A stretch of 47,284 nt of DNA from Sphingobacteriaceae bacterium (lineage in GTDB: Bacteria > Bacteroidota > Bacteroidia > B-17B0 > Aurantibacillaceae): the NCBI GenBank assembly GCA_947453445.1, contig CANGGP010000022.1, positions 1-47,284 of the forward strand, given 5' to 3'. Below, in pieces: positions 7,198-45,473 of the stretch. A program made the translations under genes and the position numbers. The notes below the pieces were generated by a model. The model was not told the DNA's origin, did no database searches, and saw nothing but the letters and a program-made list of their open reading frames with translations. The first letter of the stretch is position 1; each line of letters starts with the position of its first letter.

Positions 7198-8325
7198 TTA
7201 TTCTTTCACACATTTTAGAATGCTGTCCCATAAAAGGTTTGCACTTTTATCCCAAGAGAATTTTTGCTTTTGTAAGCTGCCTTTTTGAATCAGGTCTTTT
7301 TGCAGAGTTTCATCCGACATTAATTTTAACATGGCGCTTTTAATGTTTGTGCTGTTAAATGGATCAACCAATAAGGCTGCATCCCCGGCAATTTCGGGCA
7401 AAGCACTGATATTAGAGCAAATAATAGGCACTTCCGCTTCCATGGCTTCAAGCAATGGAATGCCAAATCCTTCATAATAGGAAACAAATAGTAAAGCTTT
7501 GGCACTTCCCAAAACCACGGCCAATTCTTCATCCGCCAGGCGTCCGGTGAAAATTACCTCACCTTCAATTCCAAGTTTTTTTATCACTTCGTGTATCGCC
7601 GCCAATCCCCAAAAATTAGCACCTGCCAATACCAATTTCATTTTGCTTGCACTTTCTTTTTTAAATTCGGCAAAGGCTTTAATTAGTGTTGGGATGTTTT
7701 TACGGGGTGATAGCGAACCTATATGCAGAAAGTAATCTTGCCCCGCACAATACTTTAACTTAGAATTTAACTTCTCTTCTACAGTGCAAACCTTTACAAA
7801 ATCGTTGATGCCATTGTACACCACGTCAATTTTGTTTTGATCAATGCCATAATGTTTGGCAATTTCGGTTTTACTGAATTCTGATACAGTAGCAATGCGT
7901 GTGGCTGCTTTGGCAAACTTAGGAAAGAAATAATTGTAATACCTCGCCGTTAAAGGTTTTAGGTCCTTAGGATAATGCAAAAAATTAATGTCGTGAATCA
8001 CAGGCAATTGTTTACACTTGGCGCCTAAAATCAAAAAACCATCGGGTGATAAAAATACATCGGGTTTAATTTTGTTCACCAATCCTTTTAATGACCATTG
8101 AAACCACCAGTAGTATAAAAAGGGGTGACGGGCTTGGGGCAATACCACCAAAGGGGTGATGTTATTGCTGAAAATAAACTCTTCTTCAATTTTCCGGTCG
8201 AATAAAAAAATGAAATGCACATCAGGGTGATTCAAGCATAAGCGCTTTAAAGTTTGGTAACTGAACCAGCCAATGCCGTCCAGTTTATTTTTCACCAATA
8301 ACCTTGTGTTTACAACGATTTGCAC
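7198..8325 (-). CDS. Family 4-type glycosyltransferase
   Basis: This 375-residue GT-B enzyme shows GIGWFSYQTLKRL near the N-terminus, the nucleotide-sugar domain opening LHIGSLSPRKNIPTLIKAF, and the E-x7-E motif in YYEGFGIPLLEAMEAEVPIICS. These are diagnostic of retaining GT4 (glycosyl transferases group 1) proteins. It lies on the minus strand inside a run of plus-strand polysaccharide genes, with its stop one base from the FkbM stop (convergent) and its start divergent from the flippase. A TAGATTTG promoter element lies just upstream. Donor and acceptor sugars cannot be predicted. It probably adds a residue to the surface glycan assembled by the neighbouring genes. Confidence 0.9.
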   Translation of the reverse strand: MQIVVNTRLLVKNKLDGIGWFSYQTLKRLCLNHPDVHFIFLFDRKIEEEFIFSNNITPLVVLPQARHPFLYYWWFQWSLKGLVNKIKPDVFLSPDGFLILGAKCKQLPVIHDINFLHYPKDLKPLTARYYNYFFPKFAKAATRIATVSEFSKTEIAKHYGIDQNKIDVVYNGINDFVKVCTVEEKLNSKLKYCAGQDYFLHIGSLSPRKNIPTLIKAFAEFKKESASKMKLVLAGANFWGLAAIHEVIKKLGIEGEVIFTGRLADEELAVVLGSAKALLFVSYYEGFGIPLLEAMEAEVPIICSNISALPEIAGDAALLVDPFNSTNIKSAMLKLMSDETLQKDLIQKGSLQKQKFSWDKSANLLWDSILKCVKE

Positions 8326-8329
8326 CTTA

Positions 8330-8337
8330 CAAATCTA
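8330..8337 (-). promoter_or_regulatory. -7 element for the glycosyltransferase
   Basis: TAGATTTG on the minus strand matches TAnnTTTG and lies 5 bp from the start codon at 8325. No convincing -33 TTG was found at the usual spacing. Confidence 0.45.
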
Positions 8338-8369
8338 TCAATTAGATTAGCAATAACCATAAAAAAAAC

Positions 8370-8377
8370 TATCTTTG
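8370..8377 (+). promoter_or_regulatory. -7 element for the polysaccharide operon
   Basis: TATCTTTG matches TAnnTTTG and lies 10 bp before the flippase ATG at 8388. It is divergent from the glycosyltransferase promoter 33 bp away. It would drive the four overlapping genes to 13161. Confidence 0.5.
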
Positions 8378-8387
8378 ACCGCTTTTA

Positions 8388-9830
8388 ATGCAAAAGAAGA
8401 AATTTATATTCGATCTCGCGATTTTACTGGTACTTAACCTCCTTATTAAGCCATTTTGGACCATCATAGTTGAGCCAAAAGTACAAGGCCAAATTGGTAA
8501 TATTGGTTACGGTGAATACTTCCAGATTTTTAACATGACCTTGGTATTGAGTATTTTCCTCGATTTTGGTCTCACCAACTTTAACAACAAAAACATCGCC
8601 CAAAACATGCATTTGCTGAGCAAGCACTTTAGCAAAATGCTGGGATTAAAATTTGCCCTGGGCATCTTTTACATGCTGTTTGGTTTTGTGGTGATGTTCT
8701 TTTTTATGGATTTAAATCTCAAATTGGTTTTAATTCTAAGCTTAAACATGTTCTTTTTGAGTTTTATCCTTTTCTTGCGATCCAACCTACAAGCTTTGCA
8801 CATGTTTAGGGTTGATAGCATTGTTTCGGTGCTTGATCGGGTGATTATGATCATCATTTTGATGTGTTTGTTATTGCATGTTTTTGGAACACAAGTTGAT
8901 GTAATGAATTTTGTTTACGCACAAACTGCAGGATACGCCTTAACAGCCGTTGTGGCCTTTATTATTGTGCTCAATAAAACGCACACATTTAAAATGAATT
9001 GGGATTGGACCTTTAACCGTTTAATCTTGAAAAAAAGTCTGCCGTACGCTGTATTGGTACTCTTAATGGCCTTTTATAACCGGTTCGACAGTTACATGAT
9101 TGCGGCTTTATTGCCCGGTGACTTGGGTAAACAACAAAACGGTATTTATGCCAAAGGCTTCCGTTTACTCGATGCCGCCAATCAAATTGCCTATTTGTTT
9201 TCGGTGCAATTGCTGCCCATGTTTAGCCGTATGATCAAGCACAAAGACAATATTGAAAATGTGGTGAAATTGTCATTTACCATGCTTTTAACGCCGGCTT
9301 TAATTGTCTCTATTTCAACAATATTTTACGCAGAGCATTTTTTCGATAAAATTTATACCGGCGATACCGAAGGATATATCATTTTGTCGGTGCTGATGAA
9401 CTGTTTTACAGCCATTTCATTGACTTATATTTTTGGTACATTACTCACAGCAAGCGGTAATTTAAAGAAACAAAATTATGTGGCTTTGGGTGGTATTGCG
9501 GTAAACGTGATTTTAAATTTGATTTTGATTCCGAAGTTTTACGCTTTGGGTTCGGCCATTGCGAGTTTGGTAACCCAATTGATAACAGGATTGCTGCAAG
9601 TGTATTTATGTTATAAAGTTTTTCACTTTAAGGTCAATAAAAAGCTATTAACCTCGTTAGGATTATACATTGTTGGATTGTTTTTCATCAATTATTTTAC
9701 ATTAAACTTAACCAAACAATGGATGTTCAATTTTGTGATAATGCTTATATTTAGTGCATTGCTGGCCTTTGTAACCGGTATGCTCAGCACAAAATCGATT
9801 ATCCGTTTTATTAAACCAAAAAAAGTATGA
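8388..9830 (+). CDS. Wzx-like polysaccharide flippase (MOP superfamily)
   Basis: This 480-residue, very hydrophobic protein has about 12-14 predicted membrane segments, as expected for a Wzx/MATE-type lipid-linked oligosaccharide flippase. Family-like features are RFDSYMIAALLPGDLGKQQNGIYAKGFRLLDA around the seventh segment and GNLKKQNYVALGGIAVNVILNLILIP in the second half, the usual Wzx repeat of the 'vn-x-x-lNlilIP' motif. It would move undecaprenyl-linked repeat units across the inner membrane. It overlaps the chain-length gene by 4 bp (ATGA), implying coupled translation. A teichoic-acid or exopolysaccharide flippase is an equivalent call. Confidence 0.87.
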   Translation: MQKKKFIFDLAILLVLNLLIKPFWTIIVEPKVQGQIGNIGYGEYFQIFNMTLVLSIFLDFGLTNFNNKNIAQNMHLLSKHFSKMLGLKFALGIFYMLFGFVVMFFFMDLNLKLVLILSLNMFFLSFILFLRSNLQALHMFRVDSIVSVLDRVIMIIILMCLLLHVFGTQVDVMNFVYAQTAGYALTAVVAFIIVLNKTHTFKMNWDWTFNRLILKKSLPYAVLVLLMAFYNRFDSYMIAALLPGDLGKQQNGIYAKGFRLLDAANQIAYLFSVQLLPMFSRMIKHKDNIENVVKLSFTMLLTPALIVSISTIFYAEHFFDKIYTGDTEGYIILSVLMNCFTAISLTYIFGTLLTASGNLKKQNYVALGGIAVNVILNLILIPKFYALGSAIASLVTQLITGLLQVYLCYKVFHFKVNKKLLTSLGLYIVGLFFINYFTLNLTKQWMFNFVIMLIFSALLAFVTGMLSTKSIIRFIKPKKV

Positions 9831-40550: not shown

Positions 40551-41009
40551 ATGGCTTATCGAATCATCCTTTTCTTGCTCCTTAATTTTGCAGCCTTGGC
40601 CATCGGCGGAATTTCAACATCCAAAGGTGTTGTTTCAGAATGGTATGCCGGTTTAAACAAAGCACCATGGACGCCACCCGGCTGGGTGTTTGGGTTTGCA
40701 TGGACAAGCATCATGATTTGTTTTTCAATCTACTTGGCCATGCTTTGGCCGAATGTAGAAAACAAAAATGTGTTTATCGCATTATATGTTTTGCAGTGGT
40801 GTTTAAATGTGGCCTGGAATCCGGTATTTTTTAATTTACAATTTTTAAAAGTAGCCTTGCTGTTAATTGTTTCGCTAACATGCCTAATTGCTTATTACCA
40901 ATTTTCATTCTGGTCTGTTTTAAAAATAAAATCAATTTTTATTGCTCCATATTTCATATGGTTGCTAATTGCCACTTCACTAAATACCTATATCGTGCTG
41001 AAAAATTGA
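40551..41009 (+). CDS. tspO: TspO/MBR-family tryptophan-rich sensory protein
   Basis: The 152-residue membrane protein has five predicted helices and the TspO hallmarks: WYAGLNKAPWTPPGWVFGFAWTSIMICFSIYLA (about 28-60) and ALYVLQWCLNVAWNPVFF. Trp and Pro in these loops line the porphyrin-binding pocket. TspO binds tetrapyrroles and handles oxidative or stress signals in the inner membrane. The gene is alone, with the fusion enzyme's gene converging on it 86 bp beyond its stop. Its frame and length are normal for the family. Confidence 0.93.
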   Translation: MAYRIILFLLLNFAALAIGGISTSKGVVSEWYAGLNKAPWTPPGWVFGFAWTSIMICFSIYLAMLWPNVENKNVFIALYVLQWCLNVAWNPVFFNLQFLKVALLLIVSLTCLIAYYQFSFWSVLKIKSIFIAPYFIWLLIATSLNTYIVLKN

Positions 41010-41095: not shown

Positions 41096-43027
41096 TTAAT
41101 TTTCTTCAGGTTTATTCATCCAAACAAGTCCATTTCTATTCTCGTACTTATCAATTTTACCCGCTAAATAAAGATTGTTTAAAATCAATTGAGCATCCTC
41201 CTTGGGTAAATTACTTAAGAAAATAAATTCCAATTCTGTCATATTATTAAACTCTGCAAATAAATCTTCGGGTTCTTTCTCCAAAGGTTTTTTAACCACA
41301 TCGGGCATCAATTCACGGATCATTTCTTCAAATTGATGAAAGGTATGATATCCTTCAAGTTTGCGTTTCATGCCATTTTTGGTCGTAAAAAACAAAGTGG
41401 GAAACACATTCACATTCATGTCTTCCGATAATCGTAAATCTTCCAGAAATGATTCTTGTCCGCGGCCCTTCATGTCCTTTAACAGCAATGCTGAATCCAA
41501 ACCACATTTTAAGGCTGCATCTTCAATGTATTCCCATTTAGTGATATTCTTTTTTTCGATAAAAACCATTTCTTTTAGTCTCCGTAAAAAAAGTGTTGCC
41601 TTATTAATGTTCTGCAGCTGTGCGGCTTTAAATGCAATAGAAGGTGGAAAAGAAGATTCAAGTGGATCCTCAAGCCATACATCACCAACGATGGGTGTAT
41701 TATGTTCCTTGCCAACTTCCTCCCAGTATTTTGCAGCATCAATCGGTTGCTTAATAATGCCTTTGTCGTAATTTAACCAAGATGGTAGCAGCCCTCCCAT
41801 TTTGTATTCAATGTCGATATTATCACCATACTCCAATTTTAACTTTCTTAAAATCGGTTGAAAAATCCAACAAGTTGAGCAAACGGGATCTGTAAAGTAT
41901 AATATTTGTATTGGTTTTGGTTTATTAATGATTGTATTCTCTTCTGATACCAAGGGTAAAATATATTCCCTTTCATTATGGTCTTGCGGATTTAAAAACA
42001 AATCTTTTAAGGCCCTCCCTTGTTCAACATGTTGTTTTACAATTGGTGATCGTTTTTGATAATAATCTGCAAATGCTTGTTCGTTTGTTTCTTTTGTGGC
42101 CAATGCATCACATAAGGTTTTAGCATCAACAATGGCATTGCTTGTTCCCGCGCTGGTAAATGGCAAAGCCAAATGGGCGGCATCACCAAGTAAAACAATG
42201 TTATTTTGGTGAAAGCTTGGAAGTAAATCAAAATCACGGGTGTTCCAAAAGTATGAGTTTGAAAAATCATTGGCTTCAATAATTTCTTTTGTCTTGCCCG
42301 GAAAATCGTTTAATAATTGCTGACAGAAAGCTTTCACTTGTTCAGGGCTTGTGCCTTCTAAACTATCTTCCATTTTTACGTCATACTGCATAAACCAAAC
42401 CACTTCACTACACGATAAAGGAATATATCCAAAAGCCAAACCTTTTTGTGAACTTTGTATTTTTTGAAACAATACCTCCTTGTTTTGGTTTCTTAAACTA
42501 TAATTCGCAATACCAACGATTTCTTTAACCACAATGGGTGAAAATTGAGTTGTACCGAATAATGCCTCCCTTATTTTTGAGTGACTGCCATCGGCACCAA
42601 TAAAAATATCACCATATTCAATGTCGCCATTTTCGAATACTGCAGCCACGGCCTTATCTTGGTCATATAAAAAACGAGAGAAGACGCGGCCGGTTTTTAA
42701 AATATTAGAATTGTAAAACGAATGCAAAAAAGCCAACAAATCCAAGCGCTTCATTGAGGCCCAGCCATCCAATTTTATTTTAATCACTTCATCGTTATTC
42801 GGTCGCTTTAAGCTGAACAAATCAATTTTTTGACGACTGAGTTTTTCATTGGTTTTTTTCATCAGTTCTTTTAAAACTGCTAAGCCATCTAAACTCATTA
42901 AAAAGGCAAAGCCTTGGTGATCAAATTGACTTGATCTTTCATTCACAACAACCTCATAATTTTGTTCCTGCAATAATATTCCTGCAGTTAAGCCTGCAAT
43001 ACCACCACCAATAATTACTGCTTTCAT
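41096..43027 (-). CDS. FAD monooxygenase fused to a DsbA/FrnE-like thioredoxin domain
   Basis: The predicted start is ATG 43027; the longer frame runs into the aminotransferase gene. Residues 1-~350 form a flavin monooxygenase of the TetX/PHBH kind: GGGIAG (7-12), GADGSHSK (144-151) and GDAAH (281-285) near LPFTSAGTSNAIVDA. From about 372 the chain becomes DsbA/FrnE-like, with YFTDPVCSTCWIFQP (Cys383-x-x-Cys386), a helical insertion and the cis-proline loop NVFPTLFF (Pro543). The last ~65 residues look like a small helical domain (EFIFLSNLPKEDAQLILNNLYL). Each part alone is familiar, and their covalent fusion is unusual. No stop or frameshift lies at the junction. The start ATG shares an ATGA with the aminotransferase stop, so the two proteins are made together. 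Confidence 0.87.
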   Translation of the reverse strand: MKAVIIGGGIAGLTAGILLQEQNYEVVVNERSSQFDHQGFAFLMSLDGLAVLKELMKKTNEKLSRQKIDLFSLKRPNNDEVIKIKLDGWASMKRLDLLAFLHSFYNSNILKTGRVFSRFLYDQDKAVAAVFENGDIEYGDIFIGADGSHSKIREALFGTTQFSPIVVKEIVGIANYSLRNQNKEVLFQKIQSSQKGLAFGYIPLSCSEVVWFMQYDVKMEDSLEGTSPEQVKAFCQQLLNDFPGKTKEIIEANDFSNSYFWNTRDFDLLPSFHQNNIVLLGDAAHLALPFTSAGTSNAIVDAKTLCDALATKETNEQAFADYYQKRSPIVKQHVEQGRALKDLFLNPQDHNEREYILPLVSEENTIINKPKPIQILYFTDPVCSTCWIFQPILRKLKLEYGDNIDIEYKMGGLLPSWLNYDKGIIKQPIDAAKYWEEVGKEHNTPIVGDVWLEDPLESSFPPSIAFKAAQLQNINKATLFLRRLKEMVFIEKKNITKWEYIEDAALKCGLDSALLLKDMKGRGQESFLEDLRLSEDMNVNVFPTLFFTTKNGMKRKLEGYHTFHQFEEMIRELMPDVVKKPLEKEPEDLFAEFNNMTELEFIFLSNLPKEDAQLILNNLYLAGKIDKYENRNGLVWMNKPEEN

Positions 43028-44202
43028 TGAATCACTTTTTTGATGCGGTTTAAAGCTTCTCTTAAAATGCCCTCTGAACTGGCGAAACTCATGCGGATAT
43101 AACCTTCGGCACCATCTCCGAACCATTGTTTTAAACCCGGCACAACAGCCACTTTTGCCTCTTTTAATAACAAGGCATGCATGGCTGCACTGCTTAAATT
43201 TGTTTGTCGAATATCCGTAAAGGCTACATAACAACCTTCGGGTGCAATGCAATTAAAATTTGGAATGGAATTAAGTTCATTCACTACCAATTGGCGCATT
43301 CGCGTTAAATGACTTAAAAAATCCTTCAACCAATAACTACAATCATTTATTGCTGTAGCGGCGGCTATTTGAGAAAGTGCATTGGCGCCATGAATGGTAG
43401 AGTAGTGCAAGGAGGCTTCCATCAGTTGTTTAAAGTAGGTGTCTTGGTGTGCCATCACAGCCCCAATGCGCAGTCCTGCCAAGCCATATGATTTACTAAA
43501 GCCGGTTACAGTAACCGTGCGTCTTCTTATTTCTTCGTCGATTGATGCAATGCTTGTAAATTCAGCAGGACTAAAAATGATATCGCTCCAAATTTCATCC
43601 GACAAAATTGTGAGATTGTATTTACATGCCAAATCACCCAATTGTTTTAATTCAGTTTTGCTAAACACCTTACCGGTTGGATTCAAGGGGTTGCACAAAC
43701 AAATAAGTTTAGTTTTATCGTTGATCAAGGGAGCCATGTTGTTAAAGTCAACATGTGTGGTGCCCGGCGGAATGGCAAAAGGTATAGCTGTAGCGCCTAC
43801 TGATTCAACTGAATACCGAAATAAAAAATCAACGGGATCGAAAATGATGGCCTCATCACCGGCATTTAAAAAAGCTTTACAAGTAAGGTATATGCCAAAT
43901 GCTGCACTGTCAACCGCAAATGTATGTGCGGCCAAAACAGGCACATGGCGTTTGTTTTGAAAAAATTGCGCCACGCTTTCCTTAAATTCGGGCATACCCT
44001 CAGGCGGCGTGTAACAGTAATAACGGTCTTTTGCAAATTTGCTGATGGCTTCCGAGATTTCAGGTGCGCTGGGAAAGTCAGGATCGGCTGCTGTAAGCGG
44101 AATGACTCCTTCTTCCACACTGGCCCATCTTAAATTGTGTGCCCTCTGCTTTAAGAGATGAAGATTTACATTTTCATTTTGAAACATATTTTGTTTTTGC
44201 AT
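43024..44202 (-). CDS. PatB/MalY-like class I/II aminotransferase or C-S lyase
   Basis: The 392-residue PLP enzyme has DPDFPSAPEISEAISKF, the cofactor-binding LCNPLNPTGKVFSKTEL, ILSDEIWSDIIF and the PLP lysine in VTVTGFSKSYGLAGLRIGAV. It ends with a substrate-carboxylate arginine in EGYIRMSFASSEGILREAL. The opening IPLTAADPDFPS resembles PatB/MalY (cystathionine beta-lyase/aminotransferase) proteins as well as aspartate-type aminotransferases. Its translation is coupled (4-bp overlap) to the monooxygenase-DsbA fusion. A sulfur-metabolism role fits that partner but is inferred. Confidence 0.87.
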   Translation of the reverse strand: MQKQNMFQNENVNLHLLKQRAHNLRWASVEEGVIPLTAADPDFPSAPEISEAISKFAKDRYYCYTPPEGMPEFKESVAQFFQNKRHVPVLAAHTFAVDSAAFGIYLTCKAFLNAGDEAIIFDPVDFLFRYSVESVGATAIPFAIPPGTTHVDFNNMAPLINDKTKLICLCNPLNPTGKVFSKTELKQLGDLACKYNLTILSDEIWSDIIFSPAEFTSIASIDEEIRRRTVTVTGFSKSYGLAGLRIGAVMAHQDTYFKQLMEASLHYSTIHGANALSQIAAATAINDCSYWLKDFLSHLTRMRQLVVNELNSIPNFNCIAPEGCYVAFTDIRQTNLSSAAMHALLLKEAKVAVVPGLKQWFGDGAEGYIRMSFASSEGILREALNRIKKVIQ

Positions 44203-44667: not shown

Positions 44668-44940
44668 TTAAATGACTGAATCCTTGATCAAGGGTAGAAT
44701 TTCTAATGATTTCATGAGTTGGTACAATGGAAGTGTGGGCATTAATTCTTTAACCTTTTCTTCATCAATATCCTTAAAAATGAGCACTGCGCCATTTTTA
44801 GTTGGCCTTAAAAATAATTGTTCCAAAAATCCTGCCTTTTTCCATGCGGCAACTACTTCGCGTTCATGTTTAATGATGTCTTGAAAATTGGCCGGTAAAT
44901 TGTCGGTGTGAATGGTTAATATGGCTAAAACACGATTCAT
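44668..44940 (-). CDS. Small muconolactone-isomerase/YciI-like protein
   Basis: The 90-residue protein reads MNRVLAILTIHTDNLPANFQDIIKHEREVVAAWKKAGFLEQLFLRPTKNGAVLIFKDIDEEKVKELMPTL with charged breaks, and has the length and beta-alpha-beta pattern of dimeric alpha/beta barrel proteins such as muconolactone isomerase. The 'R-x-x-x-x-G-A-V-L-I-F' strand and 'L-P-x-x-x-x' turn fit. It diverges from an HxlR regulator, and such pairs are often controlled together. Function is uncertain; an electrophile- or lactone-related role is only a guess. Confidence 0.6.
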   Translation of the reverse strand: MNRVLAILTIHTDNLPANFQDIIKHEREVVAAWKKAGFLEQLFLRPTKNGAVLIFKDIDEEKVKELMPTLPLYQLMKSLEILPLIKDSVI

Positions 44941-45104: not shown

Positions 45105-45473
45105 ATGGAAAATACTGGCTTCAGGAAGACAAAAGATTTTGCACCCGGCAATTGCCCGGTGTCGTATTGCATGAATATGTTTGGCGGAAAATGGAAACCA
45201 ACCATCATACACATGATTCGTACCGACAGAAACCGTTATAGTTTAATGCAAAAAAACATCCTCGAAATCAGCAAACAAACACTCACCAATCAATTGTGTG
45301 AACTGGAGGCTGATGGAATCATTGAAAGGCTTATTTATGCCGAAATACCACCCCGTGTTGAATACAAAATGAGTGCCTTTGGCCTCACACTTCTGCCCAT
45401 TATCGACAGCATGTACGCCTGGGCAAAACAAAACATGCCCGCTACCTTGGTACATGATTGCATGAAGTCGTAA
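45105..45473 (+). CDS. HxlR-family transcriptional regulator
   Basis: The 122-residue winged-helix protein has the family motif NCPVSYCMNMFGGKWKPTIIHMI near the N-terminus, with Cys17 and Cys22 (numbered from ATG 45105) close by, then ISKQTLTNQLCELEADGIIERLIYAEIPPRVEYKMSAFGLTLLPII. HxlR proteins often sense quinones, aldehydes or thiol stress through an N-terminal cysteine. It diverges from the small isomerase-like gene over a shared operator and is probably autoregulated. It may also govern the nearby aminotransferase and fusion enzyme. Confidence 0.92.
   Translation: MENTGFRKTKDFAPGNCPVSYCMNMFGGKWKPTIIHMIRTDRNRYSLMQKNILEISKQTLTNQLCELEADGIIERLIYAEIPPRVEYKMSAFGLTLLPIIDSMYAWAKQNMPATLVHDCMKS

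Follow-up and report, generated by a model that had tools for sequence, protein, structure and literature searches.

What a flavin monooxygenase and a redox-type thiol protein may do together when they are encoded as one polypeptide is the question raised by a gene of a Sphingobacteriaceae bacterium (GTDB family Aurantibacillaceae). The gene lies in a stretch of 47,284 nucleotides (contig CANGGP010000022.1), which was analysed as a whole and is called the window below. The features that bear on the question are as follows, with conservation counted over the 75 full-length rows described further on.

41096..43027, minus strand: fused gene for a flavin monooxygenase and an SpxH/YjbH-type thiol protein, 643 aa in one open frame
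41948..43027, minus strand: group A FAD monooxygenase domain, residues 1-360, from PF01494 and the fold matches of the model
41327..41899, minus strand: thioredoxin-fold domain with a helical insertion, residues 377-567, from PF13743
41870..41881, minus strand: CSTC motif with Cys383 (75/75 rows) and Cys386 (69/75)
41114..41272, minus strand: C-terminal winged-helix-like part of the YjbH fold, residues 586-638, from predicted secondary structure and the end-to-end match to 6GHB and 6GHO
43024..44202, minus strand: PLP enzyme of fold-type I, a relative of PatB and aspartate aminotransferase, with a 4-base overlap with the fusion start
40551-41009, plus strand: TspO/MBR-family gene, convergent to the fusion
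44668-44940, minus strand: small muconolactone-isomerase-like gene, upstream of the PLP gene
45105-45473, plus strand: HxlR regulator (PF01638), divergent, about 900 bases from the PLP gene

The fused frame runs on the minus strand from an ATG at 43027 to a stop at 41096 with no interruption between, and the motifs named by the first-pass annotation are all located in it: GGGIAG at residues 7-12, GDAAH at 281-285, CSTC at 383-386, and a cis-proline loop, in which P543 of V-F-P-T is assigned to the cis-proline position by motif. Pfam places NAD_binding_8 at 5-33, the best stretch of PF01494 (FAD_binding_3) at 142-335 (3e-18) and PF13743 (Thioredoxin_5) at 377-567 (1e-44). An AlphaFold2 model of the whole chain, built from 64 aligned relatives (alignment A2, which holds 64 of the 75 full-length rows), reached a mean pLDDT of 88.5 and a pTM of 0.85. 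No leader stands in front of the Rossmann fold, so the fusion should be cytoplasmic.

The front half has the GxGxxG and GD motifs, the FAD_binding_3 domain (66.6 bits against a cut-off of 22) and the fold of the group A monooxygenases. Its nearest solved structures are HpxO (3rp7, Z 36.8), PhzS (3c96, Z 36.8) and the tropone 2-monooxygenase TrlE (8rqh, Z 36.5), all at 2.5 A, in a structural comparison that was also run with Foldseek; by sequence (phmmer, PDB) the matches are weak, the best being to 6-hydroxynicotinate 3-monooxygenase at 2.1e-12. The earlier label "TetX-like" is right as far as the common superfamily goes and fails at the family level, where the NCBIfam scores stay below their cut-offs (37.2 of 750 bits for Tet(X), and 63.5 of 550 bits among the tetracycline destructases) and leave resistance of the Tet(X) type unsupported. 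The FAD-dependent urate hydroxylase HpxO was rejected in the same way (102.3 of 500 bits), and of the 85 NCBIfam models matched, the 25 listed all have cut-offs that the fusion fails to reach. A pairing of Cys91 in this half with Cys383 was also considered and rejected as a general feature: Cys91 is present in 73/75 rows, but the window itself has Ser91 (Gly in L093), and these exchanges are unlinked to the loss of Cys386.

In the thiol half the SpxH/YjbH protein is complete, the winged helix included. Residues 367-637 align to residues 21-291 of the 298-residue chain of Geobacillus YjbH (6GHB, E 1.4e-38; phmmer, PDB), and residues 368-639 of the model superpose on chain 6ghb_D with a Z of 33.1 and an rmsd of 1.8 A (264 aligned of 267 residues), so that the C-terminal half of the fusion holds both the winged helix and the full-length fold. 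PF13743 is matched with 153 bits against a cut-off of 27. The protein is not free-standing, being fused in 73 distinct loci, and owing to this fused state we class it as an SpxH-type domain, not as SpxH. Thus the thioredoxin fold and the presence of a further C-terminal domain, both noticed in the first pass, are retained, while the label DsbA/FrnE is replaced and the "extra helical" domain becomes the winged helix of YjbH. The DsbA/FrnE assignment was rejected on PF01323 (DSBA), which gives 20.1 bits against a cut-off of 25.6 in the window; the relative L096 scores 33.4 bits on the same model. The C-terminal half alone has no NCBIfam match at 1e-3, and in the window's genome there is no second PF13743 match above the cut-off.

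How far does this architecture extend? Two patterns, both inside the monooxygenase half, were used to scan 84,980 species and gave 95 confirmed candidates, and the best 80 of the 95, retained by score to the fused query, are all titled Bacteroidota or groups therein. The fusion is uninterrupted in 71 of these 80 loci, while 6 more are cut off by the end of a contig, L103 and L108 are the 2 broken ones and L105 is the 1 locus with the flavin half only; ranking by the fused query favours fusions, hence 71/80 is a biased rate and the remaining 15 candidates may be fused less often. The 75 full-length rows consist of the 71 scan loci, the window (which stands for L001) and three further loci, and since L002 duplicates L041 and L004 duplicates L073, they correspond to 73 distinct loci, just as the 84 rows of the wider set correspond to 82. 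Nine of the 84 were omitted from the full-length alignment, namely L032, L083, L095, L107, L109 and L110, which are cut by contig ends (L107 and L109 come from a single assembly, as two contigs that give the same match), the broken L103 and L108, and L105, which has the monooxygenase only. In the window's genus the fusion is present in 3/40 genomes and a stand-alone relative of the thiol half in 7/40 (E 1e-76 or better), with both in 0/40; in a phylum sample of 395 genomes we found the fusion in 2 and the thiol half only in 18 more (E 1e-40). Carriers include named strains of Flavobacterium, Pedobacter, Flectobacillus and Arcicella. The earlier statement that no common fusion of this kind was known has thus to give way to a fusion widespread in Bacteroidota. 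No plasmid record covers 80% of the fusion, and none matches positions 1-25000 of the window (25 kb). The parts as such are known; in the open-licence literature we found no description of the fused architecture, its single origin, the PLP partner or the convergent operon.

With respect to its origin, a tree of the thiol domains from 75 fused rows, 37 stand-alone Bacteroidota rows and two outgroups separates all fused domains from the rest by a branch supported at 100/100, and on the evidence of this tree the fusion arose once. (The 37 leave out the split L128 and the two outgroups; among them, the stand-alone rows of L057, L059 and L071 do not differ over the region retained.) In a tree of the monooxygenase half, made by a quick method with no bootstrap and having some long branches, that of Persicobacter included, the fusions and their unfused relatives are grouped together (100), and 14 other Bacteroidota monooxygenases stand outside; its input was 34 of the 75 fusions, L105, the partial L110, 5/12 unfused relatives, the Persicobacter one and 14/19 other monooxygenases tried. 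L105 nests among the fusions in this tree. Its frame stops at codon 366 and gives a monooxygenase of 365 residues that lacks the thiol domain; the 217 bases from there to the contig end are rich in stops. The nested position of L105 indicates that the thiol domain was lost secondarily.

These data also settle whether the single chain is genuine. The first pass had allowed that a frameshift or misassembly near 41950 joined two genes, and relatives with separate genes are indeed known. Such relatives exist but are no sign of an artefact, since they support a functional link, as seen below. The same unbroken full-length frame recurs in 75 rows (73 distinct loci, isolates among them), which excludes a fault at the junction, and the fused thiol domains are one clade; we regard an artefact as virtually ruled out.

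The fusion is regularly accompanied by a second enzyme, whose joint conservation tells more than any other feature and was passed over by the first-pass annotation. A PLP gene of one subfamily stands upstream on the same strand, as the first or second called frame, in 81/84 rows; of the three others, L058 has another gene in this place and two begin right at the edge of a contig. The end of the PLP gene overlaps the fusion start by 4 bases in 50/74 fusions measured, the window not counted, and the window is alike. The closest relatives of the encoded enzyme are PatB C-S lyases, GntC and aspartate aminotransferases, and it is under the cut-off of all 25 models listed, including PatB TIGR04350 (222.7 of 340 bits), so that a C-S lyase activity is at most putative. 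At E 1e-85 the subfamily occurs in 5/395 genomes of the phylum sample: in two it adjoins the fusion, in two others an unfused monooxygenase, and in the fifth (G209) no adjoining monooxygenase frame is seen by eye.

Other neighbours are less constant. The muconolactone-isomerase-like gene and the HxlR gene of the window were not seen as recurring neighbours of fusions, and an HxlR regulator as a fixed part was rejected, none appearing by eye among the 40 largest neighbour clusters. HxlR-like frames, again by eye, lie beside stand-alone SpxH genes in L006, L008, L009, L010 and L012. Clusters of PAS-type histidine kinases and single-domain response regulators occur upstream of fusions in L045, L053, L060, L063, L065, L091 and 11 more, the domains having been checked on two kinases and one regulator. 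In the Flavobacterium loci a gene of the metK cluster is next downstream in 4/6, and two of these also have a gene of the O-acetylhomoserine sulfhydrylase cluster upstream; the family assignment was checked on L054 alone, and the four loci are close relatives; these neighbours give a weak hint at sulfur metabolism.

A second family of the same class, perhaps Weeksellaceae, offers an independent view. There an unfused monooxygenase is found in 12/148 genomes (E 1e-60), with the PLP gene directly behind it in 12/12, and a similar unfused pair lies on a Persicobacter plasmid, annotated as NAD(P)/FAD-dependent oxidoreductase and aminotransferase. In 3/12 (L180, L182, L183) a separate SpxH-type gene stands directly in front of the pair on the same strand, with a gap of 17 bases to the monooxygenase in L185, a wider stretch of L180. 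The SpxH genes of L185 and L188, the two placed in the tree, fall outside the fused clade, so that the link of the three parts arose at least twice, independently, and this double origin is the strongest evidence for their joint action. Genome-wide, SpxH-type genes (E 1e-50) occur in 20/148 genomes, 5/12 with the pair and 15/136 without (Fisher p 0.012, kinship ignored); two of those five (G480, G573) have their SpxH gene and the pair on different contigs.

At the same spot in front of the unfused pair, a tryptophanase gene is found in 6/12 genomes (L169 at 8236-9687, L173-L175, L177-L179), the copy of L169 being over the cut-off of NF053783, and one may speak of an exchange of neighbours there, 6/12 against 3/12 with SpxH; of the other three loci, L187 has an unrelated frame and L186 and L189 have none. 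This exchange brings in the reading that the system oxidises aromatic amino acids or indole, in which a ring of tryptophan or indole origin would be hydroxylated, the PLP enzyme would be a true aminotransferase, and the thiol domain would protect the enzyme or reduce a quinone-like product. In addition to the tryptophanase, it can appeal to the nearest solved monooxygenases, most of which act on aromatic or heteroaromatic rings. Yet a tryptophanase match was seen in neither the window nor the 85 fusion loci searched, so the gene was rejected as a fixed part, and of five tryptophanase-less unfused loci read more widely two have SpxH at the spot, one has the unrelated frame and two have none, which makes a chance neighbour possible; we hold the indole reading to be rather unlikely.

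In the thiol half, Cys383, Ser384 and Trp387 are invariant in 75/75 rows and P543 is kept in 64/64 rows of alignment A2, whereas Cys386 is present in 69/75, replaced by Ala in L003 and by Ser in L057, L059, L071, L099 and L101. On the tree these losses occupy three distinct positions (L003; L057/L059/L071; L099/L101). A complete SpxH gene with CSSC, separate from the fusion and convergent to it, is carried by the L057/L059/L071 group and by L103, where the fusion is broken; the L003 genome has no second SpxH copy at E 0.001. The convergent genes (L057 4530-5567, L059 11958-12995, L071 8154-9155, L103 11475-12476) each adjoin a gene from one shared cluster that is cytochrome c-like by eye. A lone kept nucleophile with a dispensable second cysteine would fit mixed-disulfide or adduct chemistry in which another thiol resolves, and since Cys383 is invariant, the thiol-dependent oxidation suggested by the first-pass annotation is a sensible reading.

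One may ask instead whether the SpxH half is a structural or chaperone-like passenger that stabilises the monooxygenase or tethers the PLP enzyme, its thiols being non-catalytic. The absence of Cys386 in 6/75 rows and the loss of the whole domain in one lineage would agree with this, but retention of a redox site (Cys383 and W387 in 75/75, P543 in 64/64) is unexpected for a passenger, and a passive domain would poorly explain the kept Cys383; we consider such a role quite improbable.

Our preferred reading, to which we give a probability of about 0.42, is a conserved enzymatic module with three parts, in which a PLP enzyme works together with one chain that unites a flavin monooxygenase and an SpxH-type thiol protein. 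In its favour stand the recurrent fusion, the conserved PLP partner, the second operon link and the invariant Cys383. The PLP enzyme and the monooxygenase would act successively on a single substrate derived from an amino acid, to give an oxygenated or cleaved product that reacts with thiols. Cys383 would capture this product as a mixed disulfide or adduct and hand it back in reduced form, the direction of the electrons being presumed; Cys386 would normally resolve the adduct, and where it is missing another cellular thiol would substitute. Several facts count against the module. At least one lineage (L105) does without the thiol domain, and 9/12 unfused operons have no SpxH gene within about 1.5 kb; the PLP enzyme stays under every listed cut-off, YjbH of B. 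subtilis and S. aureus can do without its cysteines in Spx degradation (PMC7253607), and a Cys91-Cys383 pair is no general feature.

A more specific form of the module is a self-contained sulfur machine. S-oxygenation followed by a PLP C-S lyase is the logic of the alliin type, and here the monooxygenase would S-oxygenate or otherwise activate a cysteine-derived thioether or conjugate, the PLP enzyme would cleave the C-S bond, and Cys383 would take over the sulfenic acid or persulfide so that a free thiol is delivered. We regard this form as something of a long shot. If true, it would place an oxygenase and a dedicated thiol reductase in one chain, and would amount to a pathway of biosynthesis or detoxification by which Bacteroidota handle a small thiol, with a catalytic, non-adaptor SpxH fold.

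The known role of SpxH/YjbH leads to a different explanation, in which the SpxH half is an adaptor of regulated proteolysis that binds a regulator of the Spx/ArsC type, or a partner of the fusion, and delivers it to ClpXP, the signal being the state of the flavin or oxygen. The end-to-end match to the fold of YjbH, solved in complex with Spx, is in its favour, and genes of the histidine-kinase cluster (17/84 rows) and of the response-regulator cluster (16/84) within four genes upstream hint at signalling. There are also two ArsC/Spx-family genes in the window's genome, though such genes are carried by E. coli and other control genomes too. On the other side, in 28/37 stand-alone Bacteroidota relatives a Met is soon followed by a hydrophobic stretch that ends in Cys, and by this crude rule they look like exported lipoproteins; the remaining 9/37, the two operon copies tested among them, have no such N terminus, and the fusion has no lipoprotein-like leader. 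Because an adaptor must be cytoplasmic, the stand-alone SpxH clade of Bacteroidota is unlikely to consist of ClpXP adaptors as a rule, which argues for thiol chemistry over ClpXP delivery in this clade. PMC7253607 reports that the cysteines of YjbH in B. subtilis and S. aureus are dispensable for Spx degradation, whereas Cys383 is invariant here; it also reports that CxxC of Listeria YjbH is required for several functions and interactions, so that, these needs being different, the SpxH family itself is no firm guide to the role. Taken together, an adaptor function of the fusion seems decidedly unlikely. Most stand-alone SpxH-type loci (L005-L015, L112-L127 and others) have an N-terminal CDxxxGxC-like motif that is missing in the fusion, and the Spirosoma copy L133 is annotated as "ClpXP adapter SpxH family protein", a label that may mislead.

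The significance of the module reading lies in the SpxH fold. The known role of SpxH/YjbH is that of a protease adaptor, and in two species studied its cysteines are dispensable (PMC7253607); in the fusion one cysteine is strictly kept. What is more, the fold is linked to an oxygen-activating flavin enzyme and a PLP enzyme in two independent ways, once through fusion and once through an operon, which makes an enzymatic role directly testable. The proposed three-part pathway would be present in the named Flavobacterium, Pedobacter, Flectobacillus and Arcicella strains.

In comparison with known systems, the monooxygenase half shares fold and FAD motifs with the group A enzymes HpxO, PhzS, TrlE, PqsL, NicC and the Tet destructases (Z about 32-37, identity 18-22%), but with its unfused relatives it forms a group of its own beside the other Bacteroidota monooxygenases. 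The PLP partner has fold-type I, by family, in common with the PatB/MalY C-S lyases, GntC and class I aminotransferases, with Lys237 in 82/82 aligned sequences, and differs by its own signature, D125 in PVDFLF (Tyr in PatB 6QP3) and W205 in SDEIW (His in 6QP3), each in 81/82; the odd row is a second aminotransferase of L103, not the fusion partner. The Tyr of PatB aligned with D125 is presumably the one stacking on PLP. To SpxH/YjbH (UPF0413; 6GHB, 6GHO), the Firmicutes ClpXP adaptor, the whole C-terminal half is alike in thioredoxin fold, helical insertion and winged helix, and the CxxC is that of B. subtilis and Listeria according to PMC7253607. In contrast to that adaptor, the domain is here fused behind a monooxygenase, an adaptor role for it being hypothetical, and its stand-alone Bacteroidota relatives are often lipoprotein-like. 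A chemical parallel is found in ergothioneine synthesis, where, according to PMC4493562, the PLP C-S lyase EgtE acts on a sulfoxide and frees a sulfenic acid that is reduced by DTT, and in the cell perhaps by natural thiols. The oxygenase of EgtB/EgtE is a non-heme iron enzyme, the reductant there is no fused domain, and the substrate there is a sulfur compound where ours is only hinted to be one; in both cases an oxygenase is paired with a PLP enzyme and a reductant completes the reaction, as we propose for the fusion and its partner.
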